Shown: positions 1,953 to 38,739 of the stretch, one piece after another
Layout: each line of letters opens with the position of its first letter
Numbering within the stretch: position 1 is the first letter of the stretch
Origin: Pocillopora verrucosa
Lineage: Eukaryota; Cnidaria; Anthozoa; Scleractinia; Pocilloporidae
Assembly (NCBI RefSeq): GCF_036669915.1
Contig: NC_089320.1
Span: 15,167,590 to 15,231,589, forward strand
Direction: 5' to 3'
Length of the DNA: 64,000 nucleotides
Program-made: the position numbers and the translations under genes
The notes under the pieces: generated by a model
Seen by the model: the letters and a program-made list of their open reading frames with translations, nothing else
What the model was told of the DNA's origin: nothing
The model's database searches: none

Positions 1953-4504
1953 TCACTTATGCCCTCCATCAGTCAATGCGTGAGCTATTCCTTGGCCCAA
2001 TGAATACATGGCAGAACCAATCATTCTCTGATTCGGTTCCTGCCTTGAATAGAATCTAAAGCTCATTCCTCTTCCCGATGCTTCAGCTCTGAGAGGTGGT
2101 GGGTACTCTGAGTCATAGCAACTGCAAGTATATTTAGAACCAGTTAAGGAAAAGAGGGGTGAGGGGGGTAACTTTACAATGATCGATCTTCAACTGAGCG
2201 TCCTATAATAAAGATCGAAATGTTTAATAACAGCTCCCATCAAAAACTGATTAGAGCAAAACATGGAGCCATGCGAAATGAACGGGATTGTGAATACCAC
2301 TAAAGCACATGGCCAATTTCTTCAATAACTTTTGCGTAGCCTGGGTGGCAGAAAACTGATTCAGAGCTGCCGGGCTAGGGTACGAATCCGCAAGGAAAGT
2401 TCGGTGCATTTTTTCTCCATTTCGCGACAAAGGTTAAGATCTTGCTATATTTGTTATCAAGTCTCCGTAAATATTCTCATTTGATACCTACTGGATAATC
2501 TCGTACTGACCAGTTGCAATAAAGTTAAGCAAGCAAACCCGGCAAAAATCTCGAACTAATTGTCGTTATCGCGATTTAGTTTTCTCGCGAATGGTCGCCT
2601 TTTTCCTATAATATTCCATAAATAGTTTCGGTGTTCATAGTTTGTTGAGTTTCGGCCACATACCTTTGGCAATAAGAACCTTGGCTGGCTATGTCATTAC
2701 ATTGGCAACACCTCCCGGTTTTGTCGCTGTAGCATCTAAACAATAAATAAATATTGACAATGTGAATTTGTTGTCCAAGGGAAGTTGGAAAAAGTATTCA
2801 CAAGATGGGCCTCGTCTCATGTACAGACCATTTTACCCAACACAATATTAATCTCGTTCCCATGGTCCTGCGAGGGAAGAAGATACATCACAGCGAAAGA
2901 AGATTTACTTACGGGTTTTTGTGACAACCGCCAAACCTTTCCTCGCCATCACGTATTGGCTCCTTGCAGTGTTTACACACCGGAAATTGCCGTTCGTAAC
3001 ACCTGGAATAAAGAATATATACGAAGGTGATTCAAAATTTAATAACCATGAGGAAGAGGTGGTTGTCAACTGAACACGGCATTGGTTGACTGGGTGACGA
3101 AGATACGTATGTCAACGATTTTTCACGTATATTCTCTTGGTATTTTTGTCTCCTTCGCAGCCGTTCCTTGGGATGCCATGCTACGCTCCCCCAAATGAAT
3201 TGGGGTTGGTGTCCGGGTAAGAGATACGTAATAACCCACAGAATTGCTGCAAGGAAGACTCTCAGTCATTTTCATCTGGAAATCTAGAATCGCCTGAGAT
3301 ATTTTCGAACAGGAAAACTGATATTTTGCAGAGATTAACGAAATCCTCTCTCTTTGACTTCCTAAATTAGATGATATGCTACGCTTGCTATGTAAGACTC
3401 GTGTGGAATTTCTGGGAATTGACAACTATTGTTGACGTTAAGTAATTTAACTTTTGTTGGGGTTAAAAAAATTTTAATTTAGATTTCCAAGTATTTGTAA
3501 ACAGTATTTGTAATTAGTAAAAGGATTGCTTAAGGCAGTTCGCATGTCAATTCAAATTCTATTTCCAGCTTATGTCTTCCTGTTTTCAACTATTGAAAGC
3601 CATGTGAGTGTCTCAATACGAATTTTCAAGCCTTTAGTTATTTTGTGGTCTCGATGCTTAAAATCCTCCACTTCGAACACGAAAAAAATTGGCTTACTCG
3701 TAATGCTTCTAGTAAAAGTATTTGTATTTGATTTTAGAAATAGAATCTGTCATTAACTTTGCCTTCCACCACTTCAACGCTTTCGATTAAGGCCTACCAG
3801 CAAGTAACAGCCTCTGTCGTAGTGATCTTTCTAGAAATGGCGGAGACCTATCCATGCGAAACGAACTAACAAAAAACCGAATTTTCTCGGCGCAAACTTA
3901 AAATACAAGAAACATTCTTAGCAGCCTCTTGTGCACAACTTTCGTTGTAAGTTTAGAAAAACCAAAACCAAATTTTGCCTAGCAAAGAAGAAATGAAACG
4001 AACAAACTTGTTTCAACCGCAACTCAAATTGGCCTAGCGGCTCTCAAAACGAAACTAATTTAAAAATGGATTTCCGGGAAAGAAAGGTACGATAATATTG
4101 ATCCACATACAACTGAAATACAAAGTCAAGTCTTTGAAAGTATTCTTGATTCAGTTCTACTGTTTCTGATCATGTAATGGCCCTCATAGAGAAATAATTC
4201 ACAAGAAAATCCACCTCCTGAGAGTTGATTTCGAATCCCATAGTCGTCAGGGGATAAATATTGATCATGAAGCTAAAGAGGAAGAGAAGGTTGTTTAGGT
4301 TTCTTGGATCGTTCGCAAAACAAGATGAATTGCCATTTAAATTCTTCTCTGATAGTGAACGCTATCGATGTAACGAAGTTATTCAATTCTAGTAAATTTT
4401 CCTTGAAATGCCGCTTGAACAAGGATGAAAGCAAGATGCACAAACCTTTCGCAGTAGTTTCCTTCGGTTATCTTGTCTCCACACGTACTACAGTAGTTTC
4501 CCAT
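1953..4504 (-). CDS. Cysteine-unit zinc-knuckle-like protein, paralog A (4 exons)
   Basis: I do not recognise this gene. Hand-assembled exons: 4446-4504, 2913-3002, 2664-2735 and 1953-2121. They join in frame (all introns phase 2) into 129 residues. Visible are three units: C5-x2-C8-x9-C18-x2-C21-Y, C29-x2-C32-x13-C46-x4-C51-Y and C59-x2-C62-x9-C72-x2-C75-Y. A variable basic/Ser-rich tail of about 53 residues follows. Each of the three splice junctions falls inside or at the last cysteine pair of a unit, so splicing completes each putative metal site; this is strong internal support. Splice sites are AG acceptors with GTAAGT, GTATGT and an unusual GTTTGT donor after exon 1. The start is the first ATG after an in-frame TAG; it begins MGNYCS, which fits an N-myristoylation motif. 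Zinc binding is inferred from the paired cysteines. The pattern is shorter than a LIM domain and closer to tandem zinc ribbons. No signal peptide or membrane segment is seen. Paralogs B and C lie at 15.1-17.3 and 21.5-24.5 kb. Confidence 0.62.
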
Positions 4505-4665
4505 GATCTTAAAAGTCCAGTTTAACTAAAGCGCTGTAACTCTCGAATCGTCTCAAATCGAGCTGAAATAAAACTTTCAGACGACGCCAAAACCTCCCAA
4601 CATTAGGAAATGAGTATGAGGCAGGACGGCAGAACGGACCTTCTTGAAGGAATTATGCTTATAGT
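4505..4665 (-). promoter_or_regulatory. Conserved 5' flank of paralog A
   Basis: The 160-195 bp directly upstream of the ATG is similar in all three paralogs (also 17331-17525 and 24463-24655), including stretches around AGACGACGCC and AATTATGCTTA. Similarity ends near here in each copy. I infer that this holds the 5' UTR and proximal promoter. No clear TATA box was identified. Confidence 0.35.
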
Positions 4666-5063
4666 TCATTGGTCAGGATTTGACATTTCGGTAGCACTCG
4701 GGAGGGAATGCAATTTTTCACGTGTTTGAATTGTATTCCACCAATCAAATTCCATTTTGCCAAATTAGACTTTGCTCCATCACGTGTCATTTCCTTGTAA
4801 ACAACCTGCATTTCATCACGTGTTCTAACTGCATTGTCCAACCTACCCACTGAAAAAATTCACATGGAACTAAATGCTACTGATAGTAATTTTGACCTTT
4901 TTACAGTTCCCGGCGCCATATTGGATTAGTAACCGCGCATACACGATAAGGAGGCTGGGGTTGACCCGGCGGTTCTTTCATACAGCTGATCTGCTGACAT
5001 TTCACGATCTAATGCACTTTTCAATGTGATTTCTCCCTTCAAAATAGCTCTTTAACTCAACAA

Positions 5064-5457
5064 TATGAAAATTTCGTCATTAGATGACATCCAGAAACTC
5101 GAAGCAAAAGATCTCAGGGAGATTCTTAAATCTAATTTAAAATCGACGGGCTGAATTAGAGCCGACTTGGTGTTGAAAGTTTATGCTTTGCTGATGCGAG
5201 ACGTCCTTCCATCGAGTAGTGGAGAAAACCGAGAACTTCTTACAGATGTCCAGGACCTAGAACGAAAGCAGAGCGACTTCAGATACGAAGTAACTATGGT
5301 AAGGATTTCAGCCCTTGGATGGGCGAGTAATCTCCGTAATTTACCTAAGATGAATTTCAGTCAGCTTTACGATTACCCCGTTGTTTCACGAGAATATCGC
5401 CACATCGTGTTGAGAGGAACGCATTACAGGAAGTACCACAGAAGCTGTTCAGGATGA
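5064..5457 (+). pseudogene. SAP-domain ORF remnant inside the DNA element
   Basis: From the ATG at 5064 the frame reads MKISSLDDIQKLEAKDLREI and continues as a helix-turn-helix-like SAP motif, then hits TGA at about 5151. The same frame resumes at once (IRADLVLKVYALLMR) and runs to 5457. SAP motifs bind DNA and occur in nuclear and transposon-encoded proteins. The in-frame stop at the second SAP helix suggests a broken gene. Carriage within the TIR element suggests a transposon-borne protein. Confidence 0.4.
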
Positions 5458-5459
5458 CT

Positions 5460-6820
5460 TAGAAAGCGAGGCAACGGCTGCAGCCCTCTAGGTAGAGGAG
5501 ATTTGTTATTGCTGCTATTGTTGATGTGGTACTTGTTGTTGTACCATATTCTTCAGTTAAAGTTGTTCCCATTTCGTTCACCAAGATGTCTTTTAGTTTG
5601 CCATTTGTTCATTTTATCTTATGGGAAACTATACAATAGAGCCTGTAGAACTACTTGATTATAACCCTTGTTTCTATCAACCCATGAGGAAAACTGTAAC
5701 TAACAGATGTCACAATATTTTCATACCCATCTGGCCCAGGACAACCTATGCTCGTGATACATTGAAAACCATTTCAGTTTGCGACTCATGGTAATTTATT
5801 AGGTGGCAAGACGCCATTGAAAGAATCAGACCAAAATATTAGACAATTTAAAAACTCATAGAAGTGACTGATTCACGTAACTTCTCCAAACACTATCCAG
5901 CAAACAGATACTGTTAATACTGAAACTTATCAAGCAGAAGTTATCTTGATCTTACATCAAATTCTCATAACTCATTTACAAGTAAATGTGTTGCAACTAG
6001 AAGGGAGAATTGACAATCAGATCTTGGGTATTTAAGGGTTAAAGGAAGAGAACAGAAATGCTTCCTCTCAGCTACTGATCTCAACAATGCTAGTCCTTTA
6101 CACACATTTAAGTTTCTGTCCGTGATAAACATTCAGTGAATTGATATTCCCATTCTTAGCACTCAGAGGCCTTCTGACACAAAGGTTTGCTATACTAGTT
6201 CTGATTGCATTGTGTTAACCAATGTTATGATATAATTTTGAGATGTAAAGAAGATACTTAAAAGATTGAGAAATATATCCAAATCAAGATATTTATTTTA
6301 TCCTGTTATTGTTACCATAAGATTTGTTTGAAAGAGAATCTTTCAGACCATTGAAATGTATAAGAAAATTATTTTTTGCAATTTTAGTTGGTGAAACTCA
6401 CTTCTTCTTTTTTTCAATTTAAAGCATCAAATTGATTGATACATAAAGCACACAAAATATTTTTTGAGAGTTCCATGTGGCATCCATAGTGGATTACTCT
6501 GCTATCATAAAAATAAAAAATAACAACTAATGAAAACTGCTTTTGTCACAATTGCTACCAAATTTGAGTCAGTTTTCTGGGTCTGCCATAATAAGTGAAA
6601 ACTCTGAAGATACAGTGTCTTGGTTATTTTATTAATAGCAATTACTTTGCAAGAGTTACTCTGCTAAGAGTGTTTTAGGAAAGCCATGTAGTAACAGGTG
6701 AGCAGCACTGAACTTCTTGACTTGCTGCCAGAATAAAAAAAACTCCACTGAACTTAAAACAATTCAGATACCTACTAGAAAATTTGTACTAATTTTGCAA
6801 CAAAAGTTACCCTCATCCAT
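5460..6820. other. Interior of DNA element without recognisable genes
   Basis: AT-rich sequence with only short open frames on both strands. I see no transposase motif here. Confidence 0.4.
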
Positions 6821-6823
6821 AAT

Positions 6824-7057
6824 TCACAAAGAATAAGATAAGTATAGAATGATAAATACTTTGCAAAAATACATGCCTCCGTGCATAAACTTGAAGAAGT
6901 GAAAGCTCGTTGGCAAACCATTGGGGCCATAAAATGTATTTGAACAACCAAAAGTGGCACACTGCTTTCCTTTCTTTTTGGGAGAAAAATTAGCTTTATC
7001 GAGATTTCGGCTAGGACCATCCATTTTCCCTAAAAATCGAACAATTTTACTGACCAC
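6824..7057 (-). pseudogene. THAP-like zinc finger fragment inside the DNA element
   Basis: The minus-strand frame contains KGKQCATFGCSNTFYGPNG, followed by a FHFFKF segment. The C-x4-C-x2-N start followed by a FHxFP-like segment is the first half of a THAP domain. The second half (CxxH and AVPTIF-like end) was not found in this frame; it may lie on another exon or be lost. It sits near the right TIR and is oriented inward. Confidence 0.4.
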
Positions 7058-7402
7058 GTACGAATTTCACCAAAAGCTCTCACAGATTTCACGCGGGTCA
7101 ACCCCAGCCTTGTTCTCACGTGTGCGCGGTTGCATTTCCAATATGGCGCTGGGAACTGTAAAATTCAAGGGTCAAGCAGGACTTTGAAAATTTTTTACTT
7201 TGCTAGTATTATTATTATAATTGTTTTATTATCTTCTCCTTTTTTAAGTTCAAGAAGTAAACCTAAACGAAGCGTGTATCCGTTAGTTTTTCTTAAATTT
7301 TTATTAGACATTTTAATGTATTTTTCGATTTTTTTAAGGATTTTATAATTTTTGTAAATATTTTTAGAGATCATTGTGAATAAAGGATTATCATTTTTAC
7401 TA

Positions 7403-7705
7403 AATACAGGAATGGCTCCGACCTGTGATTGGATGATAAAAATAGTAAAAGTTAATAAGTTATGGCTTGCTTGCTCGTGAGTATTGTTTACCGCGTGTCT
7501 CGAAGCGGAACAATGAACTATCAATGCTAGTGAAAACACCGATGTATCAAACAAGAAATGGTTACTTACGTAGCGAAGGGAAGGCAGCCTTTCTTGTTCA
7601 GCGAGGTCGTTCAGCGATATTCCGGTGATGAAAAAGTTATCTGCTGACTAAAATCATTTAGTCAGTTCAGGCGGACGATCAGAGACTGGAGCCATTCCTG
7701 TATTT
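7403..7705. repeat. Short inverted repeat pair (possible MITE)
   Basis: The arms AAATACAGGAATGGCTCC at 7403-7420 and its reverse complement at 7688-7705 are perfect over 18 bp and enclose about 270 bp without a gene. The sequence around is strongly AT-rich. This may be the core of a small foldback element. Confidence 0.4.
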
Positions 7706-7846
7706 CACCGCTGACAGGAATATCTCCGACTCAAACGTTTATTAATTTTTTTTTCAATAATTTTTATATTATTTTTAAACAATTTTTAAAAAAAATTTAA
7801 AAAATTTAAAACTAAACTAAAGAGCAGCGCTGTGCGAACAGTAGTT

Positions 7847-7911
7847 GTAAAACTTCTTTATTCTCTGACGCGTTTCGTCTAACTGTCGTAAACTTCTTCA
7901 GGGAGTTTTAC
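7847..7911 (-). ncRNA. Hammerhead-ribozyme-like motif (fossil)
   Basis: On the minus strand, in order: GTAAAACT (7911-7904), core CTGAAGA (7901-7895), a stem GTTTA/TAGAC with a 7-nt loop, GAAA (7876-7873), ACGCGTC ending at 7867, and AGTTTTAC (7854-7847), which pairs with the first element. This matches the CUGANGA...GAAA...(stem III)UC layout with a very short stem III, as known for hammerheads of Penelope-like retroelements. There is one extra A after the core and a C-A mismatch next to the cleavage site, so activity is doubtful. Confidence 0.4.
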
Positions 7912-8199
7912 AAGTCAACACCAAACGCTTATATTTATAAGCCATTGTTAGCGGCCATTGCGTGGGCCAATGACCATAAGGGCTTGGCTGGACCTACGAG
8001 CAGGAATAGGCAAAGCTGTGAAAAATTTGAAAATTTTTTCTGAAAATTTTTTAGGCGAGGTGAGAAATATTTTTGGGAGCCACGGTTTTAGCTAAAAATT
8101 TTCAAATTTGAAAAATTGAAGCGGTTTTTTACAGACGATGCCTGGAAAGTAGTTGGCAAATTAAGTTAGGATGGCTCGTGTACTTTACAGAAAATGTGG

Positions 8200-8943
8200 T
8201 GTTAAGGATATCGAACAAAAGAGCAGCCTTTTTTTTTGATTAGATCAATTGTCAATTACTTTAATTTGTGTGCCTAGTTACGATCGTAGTTACAATGTTT
8301 ATCTTTTTCCCTATTGGTTTGTAATCGGATATTTTAGCGTCACCACGCGCATATAAAAGCTAAATTAGCGTCCCTATAAGCCAGAGTTTCGCAAGATTTC
8401 GCCTTGAACAGCAATAACTTCGTCTTTCGTTCCAAACCTTTGGCACAAGCGGGACCGATATGTAAGTGATTTTGTTAGTTTTATTTCAATATGTTTAAGT
8501 TTAGTTTTTCACCTTGGGCGATAGCGCACATATGTACTGTGTTGTACAACAGTACAACAAATTATCTTGAAATCAAAGGAGTATTTTGAAATAACTAGAC
8601 GCTCACAAAGTAACGCCCACATTTTAGTCTTTGGGCTGTTAATCAGCCGCAAATGGTCATTGTGTAGCCGATCTTTGAATCTCGAGTAGTTTTAATTTAG
8701 CCTTTTATGATTTGTTTATGTTAATTCACGTTGATTGTTGTTATTTTAATCGCGTTATCGACATAAGCACGTAAAGCGTTTCTTTCATGCCTTTCGCACC
8801 AATTCAATTAGATTCATGCTTTCGTTATAATATTATTGCAATTTCAGTTTACGATCGTGATCGTGACCGTGATCTAAATAAACACCGTTGATAGTCATCT
8901 TGGTTTTCGTGGTTTCATTACGACCGGTAAAATAGTTCCCACA
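8200..8943 (+). repeat. 5' LTR of BEL/Pao element
   Basis: Starts TGTTAAGG at 8200. The part 8200-8593 is nearly identical to 11956-12348. It contains a TATAAA box at 8352-8357 and a poly(A) signal AATAAA at 8877-8882, as expected for U3-R. The right boundary is inferred from the TG...CA rule (ACA at 8941-8943), because the 3' LTR is truncated and cannot confirm it. Confidence 0.65.
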
Positions 8944-9018
8944 TCAGCGACACTTAGAAAACACGCATAGCGACACCCCTCGAAGTTTCCTCTTTCGTCG
9001 CAAGCGTCACAGTAAAAT

Positions 9019-9220
9019 AAACTTGTGAAGCCGGAAGCCTCCTTTGCTGCACATCTGTTTTACACTTACGATCAGCCAAGCTAGCGCCGCAGATTTCGTT
9101 CGTAAGGACTTCTACGTTGACGACGGTTTGAAGTCCGTTCCCTTGGTAGACGACGCAGTGAAGCTGATCGTAAGTGTAAAACAGATGTGCAGCAAAGGAG
9201 GCTTCCGGCTTCACAAGTTT
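9019..9220. repeat. Perfect 58-bp inverted repeat in pol
   Basis: Positions 9019-9076 are the exact reverse complement of 9163-9220, with an 86-nt spacer. The right arm is natural pol coding sequence just after the YVDD motif. The left arm is an inverted copy lying at the point where the upstream pol is missing. It looks like a fold-back formed when the deletion arose. Confidence 0.9.
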
Positions 9221-10180
9221 GTGTTCAGAGCAAGACAGAGCAGATGGTGTGAAAGAGTTAGACTTAGACCTTGATTCACTTCCCTTAGAGCGCGCAATCG
9301 GCGTCCATTGGTATGTTGAGTCTGACTGCTTCCAGTTCGTTATCGTACTACAAGATAAGCCATGTACTAGACGGGGTATACTCTCCACTGTGAGCTCGAT
9401 TTTCGATCCCCTCGGATTCGTTGCTCCGCTCTTGTTGGATGGAAAGTCAATTCTTCAAGATTTGTGTCGCCATGAAGTAGGCTGGGATGATCCGATACCA
9501 GAAGACATCAAAGTTAAGTGGGAAAAGTGGAGATCAGATTTGTTAGAAGTTCAACGCATTTCAATTCCCAGATATAAGCCCGATGACTTTGGTCGTGTTG
9601 TGAACGCACAACTTCATCACTTCTCGGACGCGAGCGTCAAAGGTTATGGTCAGTGTAGTTACCTGCGCCTTGTAGACGAAAACCAGAGAGTTCATTGCTC
9701 CTTTGTTATGGGAAAGTCCAGAGTGGCACCGTTGAAGCCTGTAACTATACCACGCCTGGAACTTACCGCCGCCGTGTGCTCAGTGAGAATCAGACAGCGG
9801 TTGCGACTTGAGCTAGAGTACACCATTGATAAAGAATACTTCTGGACAGACAGTAGAGTGGTACTTGGATATATAGCCAACGAGAGTAGGCGTTTTCACG
9901 TGTTCGTCGCTAACAGAGTTCAAGAAATTCAAGAAAACACTTCAATTGATCAGTGGAAGTACGTCGAATCAAAACAAAACCCAGCAGATGAAGCGTCTCG
10001 AGGCCTGAAGACACAAGAGCTGTTACATTCCCGCTGGATTACTGGGCCAGCGTTTCTTTGGGAGAACGAAAACAAGTGGCTACCCAAAGAAGACCACAAA
10101 CTCCCAGAAAACGACCCAGAAGTTAAGAAGTCTGTCGCCATGGCAACCACGACAATAGTGCAAGCACATTCAGAAAGTTG
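9077..10180 (+). pseudogene. BEL/Pao pol, RT end and RNase H part (broken)
   Basis: The sense frame opens within reverse transcriptase. The YVDD catalytic motif lies at 9113-9124, in the context RKDFYVDDGLKSV. The frame shifts once near 9220-9240 and then runs to 10180. The second part shows Pao-type features: RRGILSTVSSIFDPLGF, then an RNase H-like section with SDASVKGYG, PRLELTA, FWTDS and NPADEASRG. Missing are gag, the aspartic protease and the RT motifs before YVDD. The perfect inverted repeat at 9019-9220 covers the left break. Confidence 0.75.
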
Positions 10181-11791
10181 AGCCTTGCTGAAAGAATAGA
10201 ATATTTCTCTGACTGGTATCGAGCCAAGCGAGCAGTTGCCCTATGTCAACGCTACGTCAGAGTTCTGAGAGATCGAGCGCTCAAGAAGAAGTGCATCCAT
10301 GAAGAAGTGCAAGTGCTGAACGTCAGTGATTTGAAGAACGCCGAGAGTGCAATTATTTGTGATGCACAGATTAAAGCCTTTAAAGAGGTAATAGAAGTTT
10401 TACAGAAGATGAAGCAGGAAAACACCGACCCTGACAGTAGAGTTTTCGCCCGACAGAGAAAGACCAACATGAAAACAAGCAGCTCACTCTACAAGCTCGA
10501 CCCGTTCTTGGATGGAAACGGAATTTTGCGAGTCGGTGGACGTCTCAGACGTGCAAGCTTGACAGAAGACGTGAAGTTTCCCATCATCCTGCCTCGAAAC
10601 AGCCACGTCACCAAGCTGATTGTCAAGCATTTTCATGAACGTACACAACATCAAGGCAAAGGAATGACCTTAAATGAAGTACGATCAAATGGCTTCTGGG
10701 TGGTCAGCGGTTCATCGGTAGTCGCCAACATGATTTCATCCTGCGTCAAGTGCCAGAAACTGCGCGGAGCAGTGCAAGAACAAAGGATGTCAGATTTACC
10801 CGAAGATCGCGTCGAGTCCACTCCACCCTTCACATACTGCGCTGTTGATTATTTTGGGCCCTTTGTCATCAAAGAGAGAAGGAAGGAACTAAAACGTTAT
10901 GGCGTGCTCTTCACCTGCATGGCTTCAAGAGCAATACGCATCGAGATTGCCAACTCCCTCGAGACTGAGTCATTTATAAATGCCCTGAGAAGATTCGTAA
11001 GTCGTCGAGGACCTATCCGCCAGTTAAGGAGCGATCAGGGGACGAACTTCGTTGGAACTCGCACAGAACTCACCCAAGCATTAGCTGAGATGAACCAAAA
11101 TAAAATCAAGAAAAAGCTGCTCGAAGAACAGTGTGACTGGTTCACCTTCAAAATGAACGTCCCAGCGGCGAGCCACATGGGAGGCGTTTGGGAGCGACAA
11201 ATCAGAACAGTTCGTAACGTCCTCGCATCACTATTACAAGACAATGGACAACAGCTAGACGACGAGTCTCTTAGAACCTTGATGTGCGAAGCAGAAGCTA
11301 TTGTCAACAGCCGCCCCTTGACAGTGACCCAGCTTACTGATCCAGATTCAGCCAGTCCACTCACTCCCAACCACCTCTTGACAATGAAGTCAAAGGTCGT
11401 TCTTGCTCCACCAGGTGCCTTCCAGCCAGCCGACATGTATTGTAGAAAGCGTTGGAGGCGAGTCCAGCATTTGGCGAATGAGTTCTGGACTCGATGGAGA
11501 AAAGAATTCCTCCTCAGTTTACAGCAGCGCCAAAAGTGGTCACGCCCTCGGAGAAACTTGATTGTTGGTGATGTAGTCATAGTGAAAGATGAAAGTCTTC
11601 CTCGGAGTGCCTGGCAGCTAGCAAGAGTATCAGTGGTCTACCCTAGTTCCGATGGCCAAGTACGCAAGGTTCAAGTAGCTCTTGCGGATAGCTGCTTGGA
11701 CAGCAAAGGCAAGAGGATCAGAACTGTGCGGTACCTGGAGAGACCAGTACAGAAGTTGGTATTGCTGTTGCCAGCGTCAAAGAAAGATTGA
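10178..11791 (+). pseudogene. BEL/Pao pol, integrase part
   Basis: Continuation of pol after a single-base frameshift near 10175-10180; the two frames overlap by a few bases. Visible are the integrase zinc site (HFHERTQHQGKGMT with CVKC), the catalytic core with Asp in AVDYFGPF, Asp in RSDQGTNFVG and Glu in GGVWERQIRT, and a basic C-terminal region of the type that follows Pao integrases. The integrase frame is intact for about 530 residues, but it lacks its own start and the element lacks the upstream enzymes. Integrase would insert the cDNA copy into the genome. Confidence 0.8.
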
Positions 11792-11955
11792 GATCCGGGG
11801 TAATTCCCAGCCGAGGAACCTTCTAAGAAATGAACTGATCCATGAAAAAGGAACTTATAGAACAGTAATTGATTAATTAATAGAATGATAAATAGATTAA
11901 CTAAGAAATTGACAGATGTATTGATTAGTGAAATATGAATATTTCAGGGGAGCCA

Positions 11956-12348
11956 TGTTAAGGATATCGAACAAAAGAACAGCCGTTTTTTTTATTAGAT
12001 CAATTGTCAATTACTTTAATTTGTGTGCCTAGTTACGATCGTAGTTACAATGTTTATCTTTTTCCCTATTGGTTTGTAATCGGATATTTTAGCGTCACCA
12101 CGCGCATATAAAAGCTAAATTAGCGTCCCTATAAGCCAGAGTTTCGCAAGATTTCGCCTTGAACAGCAATAACTTCGTCTTTTGTTCCAAACCTTTGGCA
12201 CAAGCGGGACCGATATGTAAGTGATTTTGTTAGTTTTATTTCAATATGTTTAAGTTTAGTTTTTCACCTTGGGCGATAGCGCACATATGTACTGTGTTGT
12301 ACAACAGTACAACTAATTATCTTGAAATCAAAGGAGTATTTTGAAATA
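11956..12348 (+). repeat. 3' LTR of BEL/Pao element, truncated
   Basis: Matches 8200-8593 with only a few differences (in the T-tract near 11990, one C/T and one A/T change). Similarity stops abruptly after TTGAAATA at 12348, before the R/U5 part with the poly(A) signal. The remaining roughly 350 bp of the LTR are missing. Confidence 0.85.
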
Positions 12349-12642
12349 CGACTCTTTGACACGGAAATGCTTTTTCCTCGTGGAGTAGATTATCATTCCG
12401 GCCTGCATTCTTTCCATTCCACACAGCCACAGAAAAAGTCCGCTTTGTGTCTATTGACTGGTTACCTGCTTGTATTGCGGAAAGAAAATCCTACCAGTGA
12501 CACAGTTCGAGGTAAAGTAAAGGAAATTTTTCGGTAATAGTAGATAGTATGGGCGTACTTGGCGAGAGAGGTACGGGCTGAAGGAAGAGAAACCCACCGC
12601 TCCTCACTTCGAAGCATGGAAACTAGTTAGCGGCGCCAATGA

Positions 12643-13047: not shown

Positions 13048-13208
13048 TAATCGGCATGCTCTTGCATTTCATTTCGTGAGATGTTTGACAATACATAGGA
13101 CCAGGGAGAGTAAGATTTCAGGGGGGGTGGAGGTTTCATTCGATTCTCGTATTTCATGTATGTGACGTGTTGTCGTTTCGCCCTATTTAAGACATTTATG
13201 CCTTGTTT

Positions 13209-13670: not shown

Positions 13671-13846
13671 TGGCTATTTATTTGCTAGCTTTGACTGTTA
13701 ATTTTACAATAATTGTTGTAGTAATTCTGTCTGAACATTTTTAGCTAAATTGGTTTCCTGGCTATTTATTCACTAGCTTTGACTGTATAATTTAACAATA
13801 ACTGTTGTGGTAATTCTGTCTAAGCATTTTTAGATAAATTGATTTG
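13671..13846. repeat. Tandem 88-bp duplication
   Basis: Two adjacent units starting TGGCTATTTATT at 13671 and 13759, similar over their full length with several substitutions. Confidence 0.8.
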
Positions 13847-13997
13847 AAATCTGGATATTTTAGACTATGGTGACTTATGAACATACCAAAGTAACTGAAA
13901 TAACTGTTGTGTTTATTGCAAGGGATTCTATAGACATTTTTAAAGTTTATGGGGAGACTGTTGCTAACTTTGGTTTTATCGCTTCAGTCAAATAAAA

Positions 13998-14047
13998 TTG
14001 CTTTAAGTTGCCTTAAGTTGCTTTAAATTGCCCAAAGTTGCCTAAAT
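13998..14047. repeat. Decamer array TTGCTTTAAG x5
   Basis: Five decamers with small changes. The inverted form CAACTTAAGG follows at about 14055, so the end can fold into a hairpin. Confidence 0.75.
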
Positions 14048-14084
14048 TTACAGCAACTTAAGGTTCCAGAGTTTGCCTTATATT

Positions 14085-17000
14085 TTTTGTTTGCACGACC
14101 CATTCAAAGTTGTGAAAGAGAAACTGTTTGAACTCTAAATTAATCCCTGATAAATCGGTAACTTATCAAATGAAGTCCTCAGCACACAAATGATCTTTAT
14201 TTCTTTCACTATCGCATTATTACAACTATTAGAACCAAACGAGTCAGTTCAAACAAAAAAGCCCAATAACTAAATCAATCAAGTCAGATATAACAAGAGT
14301 TACAGAGAATCTATCGTAAATTTTATTTTGAACTTTTGAAGGCCTTTTTTTCCTACTGAGAATAGAATGCAAATAAGTACCAGTGTCATGCATTTTTTAG
14401 CAGAAGTTTCCTGGATCTAGTCCTCCTCTGATGATGATGACCGCAAAACCAACCTGCAATTATATTAAGAGCCATTGAAGCAAAAGAGGTGCAAATAGGA
14501 TAACTTTAAAATGACTGAACTTTAACTTAAGTTTGAAATATTCACAACAGCCAACAGAAAACAATAGAACTTTATTTTTTTTCTTGTATCAGCTGATTAG
14601 AGCAAAACAAAATTCCACATGAAACCATGGAAAATGGGGGACTGTGAACACAAGTGTCCGAGTTGCAATTGTTTTGGATTTCTATGTGATTGGTTGTGAG
14701 GTTGGCACAAGTTTTCGTTTTCAAACTAATTACCGTTACTCTCGGCAATTTAGTTTCTAAATAGTTCTAGAGTAGGTTTTTTGCTCTTTTCTTGTTAGCA
14801 TGCTTTAATGTAAAAATTTTCACAAATGATTTCCATTTCCCAATGATAAAATATTCTAGATCAAAATTGTTAGAGAACCAAACAAGTCAGTTCAAACGAA
14901 AAAGTCCATTAACTTGGTCAATCAAGTCAAATCTTAAAAGAGTTATTGCATTCAATGAATATTTTATTGGAAACTTTTTTGTGGCCTTTTAGCTTTCTAG
15001 TGAGAAAATGTCAAGCTAGATAAAGAGTGTTTCTCTGATTAGCTGCAAGTTCCTTACTTTTCTGCCTAGCCATTAGAATAATTCCTACTTTAAAGAACTC
15101 ACATATGCTCATGAGGTTCGTTGAATTGCAGCCTTCCATTAGTCAATCCTAACATTTTCTCATTTGGTTCCTTATTTGAATAAACTTTAATGCTCGTATC
15201 TCCCCTCTTCACCTTGAGTCTCAGAGGTGGTGGGTACTTTGAGTCATAGCAGCTGCAAGTGTATTCAGAACCATTAAAGAAAAAGAGGGTGAGTAGGGTA
15301 ACTTTACAATGATCGATCTTCAACTGAGCGTCATAAAAGATCGAAATTACGCTATAGTAGTCGAGCATTAATATTTAACGATACTGAGTTATGGTGTCAG
15401 TCATTAATTGATGGGCTATTTTAAAAATTTCACAAGAAGCATTTGTACCCCTTAGAGGAAACTCCTTGCAGTTTTGTATCAGTACAGTAATTACCCAAAA
15501 GGATGATTGATATTTGCTTTTCGTCTTTCGGGATCCCACGTATAGGAAGGAAAAGGTGAACATTTTTAAGATTTGGAGAAATAGAGACTGCTCAGAGTCA
15601 GAATGAAAACATTTGAAACAGTGTCTCTCCATATCGCTTATCCTGGCAGTATGCAAGACGTTCGTTACATGTGGACCACTAAAGCACTCAACAAGTTTTG
15701 CGTAGCCTGGGTGGTAGAAAACTGAATCAGAACTGCCGGGCTAGGGTACGAATCCGAGAGGAAAGTTCGGTGCATTTTTTCCATTTCGCGACAAAGGTTA
15801 AGATCTTGCCATATTTGTTATCAAGTCTCCGTAAACGTTCTCATGTGATATTGACTGGATAATCTTGTACTGACTTATGGCAATAAAATTATGCAAGCAA
15901 ACCCAGCAAAAATCTCGAACTAATTACCGATACCCTTCGCGATTTAATTTTCTCGCGAATGGTCGCCTTTTTCCTATAACATTCCACAAATAGTTTCGGT
16001 GTTCATGGTTTGATGAGTTTCGGCTACATACCTTTGGCAATATGAACCATTTTTAGCTACGCCATTACACTCGCAACACCTCCTGGTCCTGTTGTTGTAG
16101 CATCTAAACATTAAATAAATATCCAAAAATTGACTTTGTTGCCCAAGAGAAATTGGGTAAAGTATTCACAAGGTGGGCCTCTTATCTCATGTACAGACTA
16201 TTTTACCCAACGAAATATCAATCTCGTTCCCACGGTCCTGCAAGGGAAGAGGATACACACCACGGCGAAGGAAGATTTACTTACGGATTCTTGTGACAAT
16301 CGCCGAACATTTCCTCGCCAGGAGATATTGGCTTCTTGCAGTGTTCACACACCGGAAACTGCCGTTCGTAACACCTGAAGTAAAGAATTTGTACGAAGGT
16401 GATTTTAAACCTAATAACCATTGGAAAGAGGTGATTTTCAACTGAACTTGGCATTGGTTGACTGAGTGACGAAGATCTGCATGTCGACAATGTTTAGGAC
16501 TAGAATCTGTTATTGACGTTGCCTTCCACCACTTCAACGCTTTCGATCAATGCTTGTATACAAATAACAGCTTCTATTGTAGTGATCTTCCTAGAAACGG
16601 AGACCGTCAATACGAATTTTCAAGCCTTTACTTATTTTGTGGTCTAGTAATGCTTCTAGCGAAAGTGTTTTCGGTTTTGGAGCAAGAATCTGTCATTAAC
16701 GTTGCCTTCCACCACTTCAACGCTTTCGATTAATGCTTACATACAAATAACAGCTTTTATCGTTGTGATCTTCCTAGAAATGGAGACCTATCCTTACATA
16801 ACGTACTAACAAAACACCGAATTTTCTCGGCGCAAACTTAAAATACTGGAAACAGCTTTAGCTGCCTTTTGTGCGCAAAATTTCGATGTAAGTTAAGAAA
16901 AACCAAAACCAAATTATTCCCGGCAGAGAAGTAATGAAACAAAACAAACGTGTTCCAACCGCACCTCAAATTGGCCTAGCGGCTTTCAAAACGAAACTGA

Positions 17001-17525
17001 TTTAAAAATAGCTTTCCGGGAAAGAAAGGTACGAAAACATCAATATTGATCCACATACAACTGAAATACAAAGCCAAGTCTTTGAAAGTATACTTAATAG
17101 AAAAGGTAGAAAAGGTTGCTTAGGTTTCTTAGGTCGTTCGCAAAGCAAGACTAATTGCCGTTTAAGTACCTCGCTGATAGTGAGTGAACACTACCGATGT
17201 AACAAAGTTATTATCTTATAAATTTCCCTTAAAATACCGCTTGAACGAGGATAAAAGCAAAATGCACAAACCCTTTGCAGTAGTTTCCTTCGGTTGCCGT
17301 TTTTCCACACTTACAATAGTAGTTTCCCATGATCTTAAAAGTCCAGTTTAACCAAAGCAGTGGAACTCGCAAATCGTCCCAGTTCGAGTTGAAATAAAAC
17401 TTTAAGACGACGCCGCCTGCCAATATTAGGAAATGACTACGAGGCAGATTCGTTCCCAGTCCTACGATTGAAAGGACGAAGAACGGAACTTCTTGAGTTA
17501 AGAAATTATGCTTATAGTTCCTTGG
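14085..17525. repeat. Large duplicated segment, copy B
   Basis: Copy B of the segment. It begins near the TTTGCACGACC block matching position 244 and runs to the transposon at 17526. Its upstream continuation resumes after the transposon at 19033 and fades near 19730, where it matches copy A positions 4665-4890. Confidence 0.7.
15099..17330 (-). CDS. Cysteine-unit zinc-knuckle-like protein, paralog B (4 exons)
   Basis: Second member of the unrecognised family. Exons 17272-17330, 16285-16374, 16032-16103 and 15099-15252 join in phase 2 to 124 residues. Exon lengths of the first three exons (59, 90 and 72 nt) equal those of paralog A, and exon 4 differs (154 against 169 nt). Units 2 and 3 keep all paired cysteines. 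In unit 1 the first cysteine is replaced by Tyr and a new Cys appears one position later, giving C-x-C instead of C-x2-C. The tail starts SCYDSKYPPPLR and then diverges, ending in HEHM. The start MGNYYC is homologous to A, but here the frame stays open upstream because the TAG seen in A is TGG, so a longer N-terminus cannot be excluded. A 1.5 kb TIR transposon sits about 195 bp upstream of the ATG. Function is unknown; metal binding is inferred. Confidence 0.6.
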
Positions 17526-19023
17526 CAGGCGGTGTGCGCACTCTGATTGCGTTGCATCATGGTCGTAAAATGAAACGCGAGTCATTGGCATCCTGTAGCG
17601 GTCGAGTGAACATCTCTGGCAGCAAGATAGCGTGAATAAACGTGGAATGTAATGGGGATTCACTGTCTGTTGCCGTTCCTTTCGAAAGTGTTTGCGGTCC
17701 CACGAGACTCCTGTTATTCGTCCGTGACAAATTTATTGTTAGGAGGCAACTGAAGAGATTCAGAAAGAATCGAAACTGCAGCCTTACCCAGGAATCTATT
17801 CATTTAGCAGCAGTTACACTTACAGCCGATGGCCGTGTGGATAATATCAAATTCGCGAGTTATTTAACGGGGAATCGACCCTTGACATGCAAACGCATTA
17901 CAATGACAGCGACCCTCTAATACACGAACTATTTTTCATGTTATACACTTAAAGGCGTAAATACGGGATTCGCGAAAGAAGAAGCCCTACGCCTCCCAAG
18001 ACCAATTCGTCACGTTCAACGTTTGATGAAAACGTACAGAGTTTCAAATATGCTGAGAGAATAGAGAATACCTAGAATGAAGCTTTGAGAAACGTATTTC
18101 TGGAGTTATTTTCTGCGGGAGAGACAGTGTACTTGAAAATAATGAAAACAGCGCGTGCACATGAAAATATTACTCTTTGCAACACAATCTCACCCGGCTT
18201 TGCCAAACCTCAAGAATATACAGATGGGGAAATGACATCTTAAAACTAACCCTTTATTATGACATCGTAAACGAAAGTCATTAAAAGATATCCTACTAAC
18301 AGCTGAGTTTTCAAGTCAAGCGAATGGCAGGAGTCGCACAAGCCCATCAACACCTTTTAACGATCGACTGCCTTTTGCTTTCCAGCTTACCAAGTGTCTG
18401 CATTGTAGAGTTATTCGTTGGTCAAGTGATTCCTTTCATTGCCATAATTCAATTGCCCTTCATTAATTGATCAAGATAGTAGATTTACCATAAAACACTC
18501 TGATCAGTTAATTTGCCTTTACTTAAAAAAGTAGATTTACAGCGCAATCGAGTATAGAATAGTTACATTGTGTAACGCAACAATAGACCTTTTCTCACCC
18601 TTAATCGGTCTCAAACACCAGCACTTAAAATGCGAGAAACACATGTATCGTTGGAGAGCGTTTGAGAGCGTTTGGTCAGAGCTGTTGAAGAAGGATCAAA
18701 GCGGCTATCCAAATCTTTGAAAGGCTCCAAACTAAGACGTACATCAAATTTGACCTTCTCGAAAACCGGTCTCAAATTAGATACTAAAAAACAGTGCTTG
18801 CGTTTGTCATTGTGAAACATAGAATACGCGACAAATACGTACAAAAAAATACTTTTACACATTCACAATAAATCGAAGTAAATTTACCTATGGTGAAAGG
18901 AAAAAGGAACGGCCTAGCTTTTACGGAATGTTCAGTCAAAGTTTGCCGATTTCTGTTGTTTTCACCGCCGTATTGAAATGAAGCTACCACAATGCAATGC
19001 AATCGGAGTGCGCACACCGCCTG
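17526..19023. mobile_element. TIR DNA transposon with 9-bp target duplication
   Basis: The ends are CAGGCGGTGTGCGCACTC at 17526 and its reverse complement ending at 19023. With mismatches the TIRs extend to about 40 bp (GATTGC, TTGCAT, TGGT). Flanks are GTTCCTTGG (17517-17525) and GTTCATTGG (19024-19032), and the empty site GTTCATTGG exists in copy A near 4656. A 9-bp duplication is typical of Mutator-like elements; an 8-bp reading would suit hAT. The interior has no recognised transposase; the only long frame is 17642-17920 (92 codons), which I cannot assign. Probably non-autonomous. Confidence 0.75.
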
Positions 19024-20127
19024 GTTCATTGGCTAGGACCCCAAAAATGACCTTTCGGTACCACTCCGGGGGAGTAATGCTACCATGCATTTTTAAAAAC
19101 TGCAATTCCACTAGTTTAATAAATCCCAATGCCCCAATCAAATTGCCGCATTAAGGTATATACCTTGCACCAATCATATCACAGCATTTGGATATCGTGC
19201 ACCAATCACGGCGTTTAGGGTAAGTATCTCGCACCAATCATGTCACAGCTTTCTTGCAAATGTTGTCATGGTATCAGGGGGCCCTGCACAAAGAATGACA
19301 TAAACCATAGACTTTGGGCTAATTTTGACGAGTGTAATGGTTTGTGGCCATCGTGAGAGCCTCGTCGATTAAGGTCGAGATTTATCGGGATATCAAAGGT
19401 TCTCATTCCACCTTTTTGCATCATTTTTAAGTTAGAACGTGTTTTTTCCGCTCTTCTACTCACAACTCACCCGCCAAACAACTTACATTCCATCACGTAC
19501 CATGAAAACAGCGTCCAAAGTCCAATCAAAACATGCCCAATCATTGCTCTTCATGAACATTAGTCAATTTTTTCACCTGCTTGAATTGTATTTCAACAAT
19601 CAAATTCCATTTTTCCAAATTAGACTTCGCTCCATCACATGTCATTTCTTTGTAAACAACCTGCATTTAATCACGTATTCTAACCGCATTTTCCAACCCA
19701 CTGAAAAAAAATTCACATGCTGCAGATAGTAATTTTTCCACGCAATTCTCCCCAGTTTTGACTTTTTCTGCGAATAAAATTGGCTTTTAGCTTCCTTGAA
19801 CTAAATCCAGTTGCGTGTTAATTCCTTGTAAACAACCTACATTTTATCGCGTATTTGACGCACAGAGGGCAGAGTCCAGATAAGCAACAACTAATCAAGG
19901 AGCCCTCTTCGAAATATTATCCTTCTCTATTGTTCAATGCATCTTCATTTAATTGAGATCGCAATATATCTTTGGTTAGGGTTTTTTGGAGATATAACAG
20001 AGTTTCAGCTTGCTTTTCGCGGTGAAATTACGAGGAATTATATTTTTGAGGAAACTAACTGTAGACGAATAATTTTGATTCCTCTTTGTTAGAGGAACGG
20101 CAGTAAGCGTAGTCTCTTTCGGAACCG

Positions 20128-20201
20128 TTATTTGGTCTCATCAATCAACGCGCTCTCTCTCCAACGGGGAATATATGGCATTGCGTGACGAGACCAAATA
20201 A
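20128..20201. repeat. Small palindromic element
   Basis: Perfect 12-bp arms TTATTTGGTCTC (20128-20139) and GAGACCAAATAA (20190-20201) with a 50-nt loop. It may be a short foldback MITE. Nothing else was recognised in the unique stretch 19740-20820. Confidence 0.5.
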
Positions 20202-20823
20202 AGGCTGTAAGGGGGGAAACGATGCATTTTATTTTTTCTTAGAAGTATTTAGACAATGGACTACAAAATATCTGCGTGAGTTCAGATAAATCAGTTTTTT
20301 TTCTTTCTCTTAAGGTGAAGTAATGCGATATTTTCGTCCGTTCGAAAGTTATGCTCTTTTTCCGTTACAAAAACATTTGGTAAACGAAGTGTCCCGTCTC
20401 AACCCGCCCAGCCGAAAAAATAACTCTTGCATGCTACGCATGCCTATGTTTTCCCTTTGTTGTGTATTGTCTGATCTCGCAAAGATTTCACCACATGGAA
20501 ATAGAAAATAATGACAGATTCACAGCCAATAGTTAGGTTAGATGCCATCGCTACATAGACAATATATCTTCATTAATATCCGTACGCCATCTTGAATCCG
20601 CCATGTACTGTTGCATCCGCCATCTTGGATATTAAGAAACGATTATTCTAAGACATGATGAAGCGAAATTTTTTTAAAATGTAAAGCATTGTACGTTTTA
20701 ATTAAAATAATTATTATTCAATCTTCACACACCCCTCAAGTTTAAGGAGACTGGGACTGGCATGGCGGCTGAGTGAACGCTTAAAGTCGAGCTTCTTCTC
20801 TTTGGTCGCTTTTAAACCCCTAA

Positions 20824-21170
20824 TTGAAGAATTTTCATGCCTCTAAAGCGAGGGATAGACCATCATTTTCATCGTCATCATCCACAGAGAGAAAAGATTC
20901 TCCGGACGAAAAAATGATCGAGAGCCGAATGTTACGAAGTATTCGAAGCTCTCAACATGGCGGAAAACTAAGAGAGCTTAATATTATCGAGTCTCAACTC
21001 AATGAGATGCATACAAAAATAGCTAACATTGAAAAGACAGTAAGTAGATAGGACAGAGAGGTCAAAAGCTTAGAGAACAGGACGAAGAAACCGGAAAAGA
21101 ACGTTTAGCAAGTAGAGGAAGCCATACAATACAAAGGAGATGACAACAGTGAAATAGAATGCCAGTGAGC
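20824..21170 (+). pseudogene. Coiled-coil ORF1-like remnant
   Basis: The frame 20824-21051 has a Ser-rich start and a C-terminal heptad-like stretch (RELNIIESQLNEMHTKIANI), then TAG. The same frame continues with more charged coiled-coil sequence after the stop and again after a second stop until it meets repeat copy C at about 21170. This resembles the coiled coil of a LINE ORF1-type protein, but no RNA-binding domain or reverse transcriptase follows, so the assignment is uncertain. Confidence 0.35.
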
Positions 21171-21543
21171 ACCCGCGTCGTTTATTCCTAGTAGAAGTTT
21201 CCTGGATCTTGCCCTTTTCCGAGGGCAAAATCAACCTGCAATTATATTAAGAGCCATTGAAGCAAAAGAGGTGCAAATAGGATAACTTTATAATGACCGA
21301 ACTTCAACTTAAGATCGAAATATTTTCACAACAGCCGAGAGAAAATAATAGTACATTGTTTTCTCTTGCAACAGCTAAATTAGAGGAAAACAAAATTTCA
21401 CACGGAACCATGGAAAACGGGGGACTGTGAACACAAGTGTTCGAGTCGCAATTGTTTTGGGTTTCCATGTGATTGGTTGTGAGGTTGGTGCAAGTTTTCG
21501 TGACCAAAGCACAAGCCATGTAATCCCCAATAACCTCCCTGAC

Positions 21544-24462
21544 TCACTTGACTGATTCAATCATTTTCTGATTCACTTCCGTCCTTGAACGAAGTTTCAA
21601 GTTCACTCCTCCCACCAATACTTCAGCTCTGAGAGCTGGTGGGTACTTTAGGTCATAGCAACTGCAAGTATATTTAGAACCAGGTAAGAAAAAGGGGGGT
21701 GAGTGGGGTAACTTTATAATGATCGATCTTTAACCAAGCGTCGTAAAATAAAGATAAAAATGTTCAATAGCAGCTCCAATCAACAACTGATTACAGCAAA
21801 GTATGGAGCCACGGAAAATGGGCGGGGTTGTGAATACAAGTGTCCAAGTCGCAATTGTGTTAGGTTTCCATGCGATTGGTTGAGGAGGAGGCGAAAGTTT
21901 TAAGTGACCAAGGTATAAGCCATGTAATCCACAATAACCTCTGTAACTCACCTGGACATTTATAGAACGCACTAGTGGTCAAGTATTAATTGTCGACGAT
22001 ACTGAATTATGATGTCAGTCAATAATTGATGAGCTATTCCAACATTCCACCAGAAGCATTTGTACCCCTTAGAGGAGACTCCTTTCAGTTTTGTATCAGT
22101 ACAGTAAGTACCCAATAGGATGGCTCATGTTTGCTTTTCGTCTTTCGGGATCTCACGTGTAGGAAGGAAGTGGCGGAGCATTTTTGAGATTTGGAGAAAT
22201 AGAGACTGCTCACAGTCTAAAAGAAGACAATTGAAAAAGTGTGCCGGCATGGCTCTTCATATCGCCTATTCTGGCAGTATGCAAGACGATCGTTACATAT
22301 GGACCACTAAAGCACATGGCTAATTTCTTCAACAAGTTTTGCGTAGCCTGGGTGGTAGAAAACTAAACCAGAACTGCCGGGCTAGGGTACGAATCCACAA
22401 GGAAAGTTTGGTGCATTTTTTTCCATTTCGCGACAAAGGTTAAGATCTCGATGTATTTGTCATTAAGTCTCCGTAAACACTCTAATTTGTTACTAACTGG
22501 ATAATCTTGTACTGACTTATTGCAATAAAGTTATGGAAGAAAACCTGGCAAAAAAAATCGAACAAATAACGATACCCTTCGCGATTTACTTTTCTCGCAA
22601 ATGGTCGCCTTTTTCCTATAACATTCCACAAATAGTTTCGGTGTTCATAGTTTGTTTCGGCTACATACCTTTTGCAATAAGAACCTCGGTTAGTTATGGC
22701 ACCACATTCGCAACACCTCCCGGTCTTGTTGCTGTAGCATCTAAACATGAAACGAATATTAAAAAAGTGACTTTGTTGCTCAAGGGAATTCGGGAAAAGT
22801 ACAAAAGTATCCACAAGATGGGCCTCTTGTCTCTCGAACAGACTATTTCACCTAACACAATATCAATCTCGTTCCCATGGTCCTGCGAGGGAAGAAGATA
22901 CATCATAGCGAAGGAGGATTTACTTACGGCTTCTTGTGACAGTTGTCGACCTCTTCCTCGCCATCACGTATTGGTTTCTTGCAGTATTCACACACCGGAA
23001 ATTGCCGCCCGTAACACCTTGAATAGAGAATTTTTATTCAAAATATCATCGATATGATATGCTACGCTCGCTATGTAAGACTCAACTAGAATTTCTGATA
23101 ATTGACAACTTTTGTTGATGTTAAGAAATTTTAGCTTGGTGTTTCCAAGAGTAATCAACTTTTGTTGAGGTTGAAAAATTTTAGCGTGGATTTCCAAGAA
23201 TTATCAATTTGTAATGGAGTTAACAAATTTTAGTTTGGATTTCCAAGAGTTATCAATTTTTGTTGACGTTGAGAAATTTTGGTTCAGCATTTCCAAGAAT
23301 TGTCAACTTTTGTTTGCTTTGAGAATTTTCGGTCTGGCAATACTTACAATACATTCAGTTCTCAAAATAAGTTACATCTACAAAGCAAATGCAAGGATTT
23401 TTGAAATAAAACTGATCACCACATTGCAGAATTATCCAGCTACACGCGGACATACGCTCATTCGTGTCATATTTGTATTGCGCAAGATTTCCAAGAATCA
23501 CACAATAATTTCCGTATTTGTAAACAATAAAAGGATTGCCTAAGCCTTTTATCTTTCTGATCTGAACTACTTGGAGAGTCAATACGAATTTTCAAGCCTT
23601 TACTTATTTTGTGGTCTCGTAATTCTTCTAGTGAAAGTGTTTTCGGTTTTGGAACAAGAATCTGTCATTAACATTGCCTTCCACCACTTCAACACTTTCG
23701 ATTAATGCTTGCATACAAATAACAACTTCTATCGTCGCAGTGATCTTCCTAGAAATGGAGATCTATCCATGCATAACGTACTAACAAAACACCGAATTTT
23801 CTCGGCGCAAACTTAAAATACAGGAAACAGAGTTTTAGCCGCTGTTTGTACACAAAATTTCGTTGTAAGTTTAGAAAAACCAAAACCAATTTATTCTTGG
23901 CAAAGAAGAACCGAACGAACAAACTTGTTCCAACCGCACCTCAAATTGGCCTAGTGGCTTTCAAAACGAAACTGATTTAAAAATAGATTTCTGGGAAAGA
24001 AAAGTACGAAAACATCAGCAATATTGATCCACATACAACTGAAATACAAAATAAAGTCTTTGAAAGTATTCTTGATTCAGTTTTATTGTTTCTAATCATG
24101 AAATGGTTCTAATAGAGTAATAATTCACAAGAAAATCCACCTCCTGAGAGCTGATTTCGAATCCCATAGTCGCCAGCGGATAAATATTGATCATGAAGCT
24201 AATAAGGTAGAAGAAAAGGTAAGGTAGTAGAAAAGGTTGCTTAGGTTTCTTGGATCGTTCGCAAAACAAGATGAATTGCGGTTTAAATACCTCGCTGATA
24301 GTGAACGTTATGAATATAACGAAGTTATTCAATTCTAGTAAATATCTTTTAAAATACCGCTCGAAGAAGGATAAAAGCAAAATGCACAAACCGTTCGCAG
24401 TAGTCTCCTTCGTTTGCCGTGTTTCCACACACCTTACAGGATTTTCCCCAAATTAAGGTCAT
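21544..24462 (-). CDS. Cysteine-unit zinc-knuckle-like protein, paralog C (4 exons)
   Basis: Third member. Exons 24392-24462, 22928-23017, 22669-22740 and 21544-21661 join in phase 2 to 116 residues. Exons 2 and 3 have the same lengths (90 and 72 nt) as in A and B. All paired cysteines are present, with unit 1 as C-x2-C-x9-C-x2-C. The N-terminus differs: about 18 extra bases interrupt the ancestral MGN start, and a new ATG in frame gives MTLIWGKSCKVCG, so the myristoylation motif of A and B is lost. The tail is shortest (38 residues after exon junction 3) and begins CYDLKYPPALR. Intron 1 carries an expanded minisatellite of about 58-bp units. Conserved splice phases, open frame and retained cysteines argue for a functional gene rather than a decayed copy, but expression was not checked. 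Confidence 0.6.
23085..23336. repeat. 58-bp minisatellite in intron 1 of paralog C
   Basis: About five units of the form GAATTGTCAACTTTTGTTGA, then a GAGAAATTTTGG-like part and ATTTCCAA. Copy A has a shorter, partly decayed version at about 3410-3500. It expanded only in copy C. Confidence 0.75.
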
Positions 24463-38737: not shown

Positions 38738-38739
38738 TA

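Follow-up and report, generated by a model that had tools for sequence, protein, structure and literature searches.

Three related genes, here named A, B and C, are predicted on the minus strand of a 64,000-nucleotide (nt) stretch of the Pocillopora verrucosa genome (RefSeq assembly GCF_036669915.1, contig NC_089320.1, positions 15,167,590 to 15,231,589 of the forward strand), which we call the window and whose own numbering is used throughout. Their putative products are small proteins organized in three units of four cysteines. Spliced from four exons each and read to the first stop codon, these proteins have 129 (A), 124 (B) and 116 (C) amino acids (aa) (Table 1). The original prediction of three four-exon genes is borne out for the minus-strand open frames and the product length of 116–129 aa, but the 3′ end of the models is doubtful and a fifth exon is likely (see below). 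It also stands that exons 2 and 3 have identical lengths in all copies (90 and 72 nt) and that frames and splice sites are kept: the nine introns that separate exons 1 to 4 in the three genes are all GT-AG and all of phase 2, their splice sites match among the copies, and neither a stop codon nor a frameshift is found in any of them. Exon 4 is the variable exon. Introns 1–3 each interrupt the codon just ahead of the last cysteine of a unit, which makes exons 2 and 3 symmetric 2-2 modules.

Table 1. Exons, candidate exons and repeat units of genes A, B and C in the window.
Feature	Position	Strand	Remarks
Gene A exon 1	4446..4504	-	59 nt; start ATG has −3 A and +4 G; codes MGNYCSTCGDKITEGNYCE(R), unit 1
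Gene A exon 2	2913..3002	-	90 nt; completes unit 1, holds most of unit 2
Gene A exon 3	2664..2735	-	72 nt; completes unit 2, holds most of unit 3
Gene A exon 4	1953..2121	-	through TGA; coding down to 1957 if GTGAGT at 1956 is a donor
Gene A candidate exon 5	577..601	-	putative; acceptor ataattgcag; frame LCLPAPE, stop; AATAAA downstream at 346
Gene B exon 1	17272..17330	-	59 nt; start ATG has −3 A and +4 G; unit 1 opens C-x1-C
Gene B exon 2	16285..16374	-	90 nt
Gene B exon 3	16032..16103	-	72 nt
Gene B exon 4	15099..15252	-	through TGA; coding part 15252-15103; donor-like GTGAGT at 15102
Gene B candidate exon 5	14417..14453	-	putative; frame LVLRSSSSEED, stop; AATAAA downstream at 14201, A-like context
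Gene C exon 1	24392..24462	-	71 nt; start in frame, 12 nt longer, MTLIWGKSCKVC; G at −3 and A at +4
Gene C exon 2	22928..23017	-	90 nt
Gene C exon 3	22669..22740	-	72 nt
Gene C exon 4	21544..21661	-	through TGA; coding part 21661-21548; donor-like GTGAGT at 21547
Gene C candidate exon 5	21070..21235	-	putative; A/B homology stops near 21153, inside exon
Repeat unit A	233..4677	-	blocks matching B and/or C
Repeat unit B	14077..17529	-	blocks matching other units
Repeat unit C	about 21153..24652	-	blocks matching other units

The cysteine order first described (unit 1, C-x2-C-x9-C-x2-C-Y; unit 2, C-x2-C-x13-C-x4-C-Y; unit 3, C-x2-C-x9-C-x2-C-Y) applies to A and C, but not to B, whose first pair is C-x1-C. 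Of the 13 cysteines of each protein, one lies outside the four-cysteine units, where unit 3 begins (RCCxC). The likeness between units 1 and 3 extends beyond their cysteines, with scores of 61 (A), 55 (B) and 58 (C), compared to means of 24–27 for shuffles in which the cysteines were held fixed; their score was reached by none of 2000 shuffles for A and for C and by 0.4% of them for B. The two units are probably internal duplicates, and at least one exon module was thus probably duplicated within the gene before the gene itself was.

By inspection, the proteins begin with MGNYCSTC (A), MGNYYCKC (B) and MTLIWGKSCKVC (C), the methionine being placed directly ahead of unit 1. No N-terminal signal peptide or hydrophobic leader was seen by inspection in the three proteins as modelled, an upstream exon being possible. 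The three copies still match for about 120–190 nt upstream of the ATG; an in-frame stop codon is found close upstream in A and C, and the frame of B is open up to 17732. Given the end of the shared sequence and the stops in A and C, no leader exon is evident. Note that the MGNYCS start of A would fit N-myristoylation, a motif that B and C do not have.

At the 3′ end, the first in-frame TGA is part of a GTGAGT in all three genes (AA/GTGAGT, AT/GTGAGT and AA/GTGAGT; the slash marks the putative splice site). Scored with an approximate donor matrix that is not specific to corals, this site ranks above donors 1 and 2 and below donor 3 of its own gene. An acceptor aatataattgcag/G is present in all three genes about 0.3–1.4 kb past exon 4; the block that holds it is a tandem copy of the region around the exon-4 acceptor. 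This downstream duplication is found in A, B and C (233–2297, 14077–15802 and 21153–22421, minus strand). Splicing to the candidate exon 5 would keep phase 2 and add the residues given in Table 1 for A and B and a longer, partly hydrophobic tail in C. A and B share an AATAAA in matching context downstream of this exon. Other AATAAA/ATTAAA words lie nearer exon 4 (e.g., 1815 and 1007 in A, 14968 in B), so that the genes may also end within exon 4. On balance, a fifth exon seems the likelier arrangement in A, B and C and, with a donor-like site overlapping the stop codon, the four-exon end point is probably incomplete. The locus may serve as an example of how an apparent stop can be a splice donor.

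The genes were initially described as spread over 22.5 kb of direct repeats. Three repeat units of about 3.5–4.4 kb were indeed delimited, but the spacers are mostly unrelated DNA that includes a BEL/Pao-type retroelement between A and B (8200–12348). This element matches the Pfam models Pao peptidase A17 (expectation value (E) 2.7e-50), DUF5641 and integrase zinc-binding above cut-off, and integrase core below its cut-off. It is bordered by direct repeats (8200–8593 and 11956–12348) of 98.7% identity and was therefore probably inserted later than the duplications that gave A, B and C. Two 63-nt arms, 97% complementary and 86 nt from each other (9014–9225), form an inverted repeat where a long open frame of this element starts. 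The order of intron blocks varies between the units: a segment downstream of exon 4 in A (1204–1618) matches one upstream of exon 4 in B (15399–15802). Outside the shared gene units, a repeat of about 150 nt with 88% identity occurs upstream of A (4714–4866) and between B and C (19569–19719). A 75-aa open frame on the plus strand (20824–21051), coiled-coil-like by eye, adjoins the point where the homology of C to A and B is lost and may be a mobile element that inserted into the end of gene C.

Searches of the whole assembly covered 353 Mb in 52 contigs. This assembly also has 74 matched pieces of the GFP family, all of them on a single contig, which agrees with a stony coral or a closely allied anthozoan. 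In the six-frame protein searches, 11 scored candidates yielded 9 matches for query C (E up to 0.001) and 10 yielded 10 for query A (E up to 10), every match falling in the A, B and C units. By coordinates, these correspond to 9 (query C) and 10 (query A) of the 12 exons. Exon 1 of B was missed by both queries, which shows that sensitivity was limited. A 651-bp DNA query from C, running from within intron 1 through exon 2, intron 2 and exon 3 into intron 3, was found at three places (3 from 3 candidates), again only in the three units. No further copy was thus detected in the assembly by protein or DNA searches, at this limited sensitivity. The 20 kb to the left of the window and the remainder of the window have no blastn match to the units and yielded only weak pieces with tblastn (on the left, the best piece has E 0.064 and 27% identity and includes a stop).

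The reading that we favour, and that we regard as somewhat likelier to be right than wrong, is that a lineage-restricted anthozoan gene was duplicated twice in tandem and codes a leaderless zinc-binding adaptor. The protein would be small and modular, every exon module forming a short unit of zinc-ribbon or knuckle type (C-x2-C ... C-x2/4-C-Y) that would hold one Zn2+ through four cysteine thiolates, about three ions per protein. The resulting rigid three-knuckle body, followed by a fast-evolving C-terminal tail, would act inside the cell as a protein- or nucleic-acid-binding adaptor whose partner contacts would lie in the variable loops and the tail. Metal binding appears to be the most natural reading of the paired CxxC motifs and, together with the lack of a leader and a methionine just before unit 1, these pairs favour a cytosolic or nuclear zinc protein. 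We infer from the sequence that the gene is lineage-restricted and transcribed and that its product binds zinc, is cytosolic and serves as an adaptor.

Signs of constraint are limited to the cysteines, to the open frame and to the absence of frameshifts. The 85-codon core was mutated without selection from the majority sequence by the observed number of changes; among 20,000 such runs, 3.6% stayed without a stop codon, 0.11% kept at least 12 of the 13 cysteine columns, and a single run (0.005%) did both. Invariant columns include more cysteine columns than expected (hypergeometric P = 0.003; 0.011 when every cysteine-holding column is counted), and the kept cysteine codons have no third-base difference in any pair. 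No frameshifting event was seen in the coding part, compared to 4.1–5.3 predicted from intron insertions and deletions (P = 0.017–0.005). The frames were chosen because they are open, and these P values are thus somewhat generous. The original interpretation is supported as regards a tandem family of three real-looking genes, but not in its case for selection from exon conservation against diverging introns.

Several measurements weigh against the zinc-adaptor reading. The ratio of nonsynonymous (dN) to synonymous (dS) divergence in the core is 0.65 (A-B), 0.98 (A-C) and 1.05 (B-C), with bootstrap ranges that span 1 (0.29–1.67, 0.49–2.36 and 0.45–2.56, respectively); over the whole frame (110 codons) it is 0.59, 1.10 and 1.09. 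Selection had originally been argued from the exon-versus-intron pattern, with a dN/dS near 1 named as contrary to it; the core values are 0.65–1.05. Nor does it hold that exons are kept while introns diverge. When 120 nt on either side of the four exons were compared in the three pairs, 18 of the 24 flanks differed less than their own exon. Six flanks depart from this: three upstream of exon 2 (two unalignable), one upstream of exon 3 (A-C) and two downstream of exon 4 (both comparisons with C, unalignable). Furthermore, dN is about the same as intron divergence (K) or higher: whole-frame dN is 0.222 (A-B), 0.233 (A-C) and 0.302 (B-C), while K is 0.195, 0.230 and 0.169, a low estimate because only alignment stretches with at least 55% identity and few gaps were counted (1365–1636 nt per pair). 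The core has 47 invariant columns for a neutral mean of 44 (P = 0.20), and amino-acid conservation overall is not above neutral. Two features of the units count in the same direction: the C-x2-C spacing is lost in unit 1 of B, and no likeness of unit 2 to units 1 or 3 beyond the cysteines was detected with cysteine-fixed shuffles (P = 0.11–0.87). The trio is an example of how arguments from exon-versus-intron conservation can fail once measured.

The tail evolves fast. In the A-B comparison, the divergence of exon 4 is roughly double that of its own flanks, and its dS is also raised (1.06), so that an older or recombined tail fits as well as positive selection. A dN above intron divergence was found only for the whole frame of B-C (P = 1.6e-4, uncorrected for three pairs; 0.38 for A-B and 0.93 for A-C); in the core the corresponding P values are 0.37, 0.46 and 0.13. 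It is unlikely, in our judgement, that the trio represents a new, exon-duplicated, anthozoan-restricted family with a triple zinc-knuckle fold, in which the cysteines are fixed while loops and tail change at or above the intron pace under diversifying selection in intracellular recognition (e.g., of symbionts or microbes).

The earlier statement that no named family is known for this cysteine order was supported, in that no Pfam, NCBIfam or PHROGs model matched at cut-off or significance (best E 0.38 in NCBIfam and 0.41 in PHROGs). Nothing significant was found in the PDB either, by single-sequence search (first LIM domain of CRP2, E 5.7; a fucose-binding lectin, E 6.8), by profile search (CRP1, E 5) or with the majority sequence (Fn14, E 0.5). 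Pattern searches gave 40 matches in viral contigs and 37 in prokaryote genomes, none of which was confirmed. The best lead, which counts for the favoured reading, is the only sub-threshold Pfam match common to the three proteins: DZR_2 (PF18912), with E 0.022 and 15 bits for C, E 0.72 and 10.2 bits for B, and E 3 and 8.2 bits for A; note that the Pfam listing nominally extends to E 10 while HMMER filters remove most matches above about 0.1. These scores, below the cut-off of 27, also speak against the favoured reading. Of ten cysteine-fixed shuffles of C, none matched DZR_2, which is in its favour, but one matched UPF0547 at E 0.0036, and the DZR_2 lead is thus not significant by itself. With the majority sequence, DZR_2 is matched by the core at E 0.04 and by units 1–2 at E 0.0038 (17.5 bits), units 2–3 giving no match; units 1–2 match DZR (PF12773) at E 0.095. 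A double zinc ribbon consists of two zinc ribbons with CxxC pairs. Pairs of this kind are present in A and C, with C-x1-C in unit 1 of B, and the trio shares with DZR_2 and DZR CxxC pairs at zinc-ribbon spacing followed by a second pair. It differs from them by its third unit, the C-x13-C-x4-C of unit 2, the exon-by-unit structure and the scores below cut-off. A partial SH3_2 match in the tail of B (E 0.0082, 16.2 bits for a cut-off of 21.8), absent from A and C, was treated as a chance match.

The substitution data also suit the possibility that only the ancestor was functional and that its duplicates are near-neutral, some of them (most likely C) becoming pseudogenes. Relaxed or decaying copies would fit the core dN/dS of 0.98 and 1.05 in the pairs with C, a dN that is close to intron divergence for A-B and A-C and exceeds it for B-C, overall conservation that is not above neutral, and the altered first cysteine pair of B. 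The changed start region of C and the loss of its homology to A and B near 21153, within the candidate last exon, point the same way. However, every copy is free of stops and frameshifts and the cysteines are kept beyond neutral expectation, so that we consider decay conceivable but rather unlikely. Another possibility is that these are chance open frames within repeated non-coding DNA. The exons are short and donor 1 is weak, 6–12% of the minus-strand GT sites of the window scoring as well with the approximate matrix. Yet only one of the 20,000 neutral runs reproduced the open frame and the cysteines, no frameshifts are present, and the splice sites match in all three copies, which leaves chance very improbable.

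Two further alternatives assign the proteins to known kinds. Units 2 and 3 might be the two halves of a diverged LIM protein. The trio has CxxC pairs and LIM-like unit ends (C-Y-x4-Y-x-P, more generally CY-x4-5-Y/F-P), and the weak PDB matches to CRP2 and CRP1 go in this direction. LIM domains have a two-residue linker between fingers and HxxC; by inspection, the trio has instead seven residues between the putative fingers and C-H-x3-C. Since the PDB matches are not significant and no LIM match is listed in Pfam at E up to 10, this relationship is improbable. Scarcely more probable is that the proteins are secreted disulfide-rich peptides, toxin-like or similar to coral SCRiPs, with a leader on an undetected upstream exon. 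Cysteine-rich sequence, tandem arrangement and fast evolution are properties of some secreted families of corals and anemones (PMC2652719), and exon 4 differs more than all four alignable ones of its six flanks. According to the same source, SCRiPs are described as taxonomically restricted; like the trio they are small, cysteine-rich and present in several copies per species, but they start with a signal peptide and follow the cysteine motif Cx6-7Cx4-6CPx3-6Cx4-6Cx5-6CCC, whereas by inspection the trio has no signal peptide, no CCC and another cysteine order. Secretion is further opposed by the lack of a hydrophobic leader, by the stops close upstream in A and C, though not in B, and by the end of the shared part of the units about 120–190 nt above the ATG. 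Finally, the 13 cysteines, an odd number, lie mostly in CxxC pairs, an arrangement that suits zinc better than a disulfide knot.

In modest terms, the trio is an orphan family without a name, and its kind is familiar: small proteins with paired cysteines, coded by genes duplicated in tandem. Families of unknown function that arose by lineage-specific duplication are widespread in stony corals, as reported in PMC13044578, whose main text does not contain the word "zinc". Among the papers searched, none joins "double zinc ribbon" with "cnidaria", and among the matches listed no title names such a family, although it may still have been published. Were zinc binding and expression demonstrated, the three genes would define a small new family of zinc modules; otherwise they would be an ordinary orphan family. 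The modular origin of exons, tandem duplication, and fixed cysteines versus free-running loops can all be read at this one locus.

Beyond the repeat units, the minus strand of the window carries two long open frames (29700–31286 and 37775–38797) that match Pfam 7tm_1, the rhodopsin family of seven-transmembrane proteins (E 6.9e-21 and 3e-27, respectively). Both look like single-exon receptors. A 317-aa open frame on the same strand (57610–58563), rich in Asn, Pro and Met by eye, matches nothing in Pfam at E up to 0.001 and may be one exon of a gene for a larger protein.

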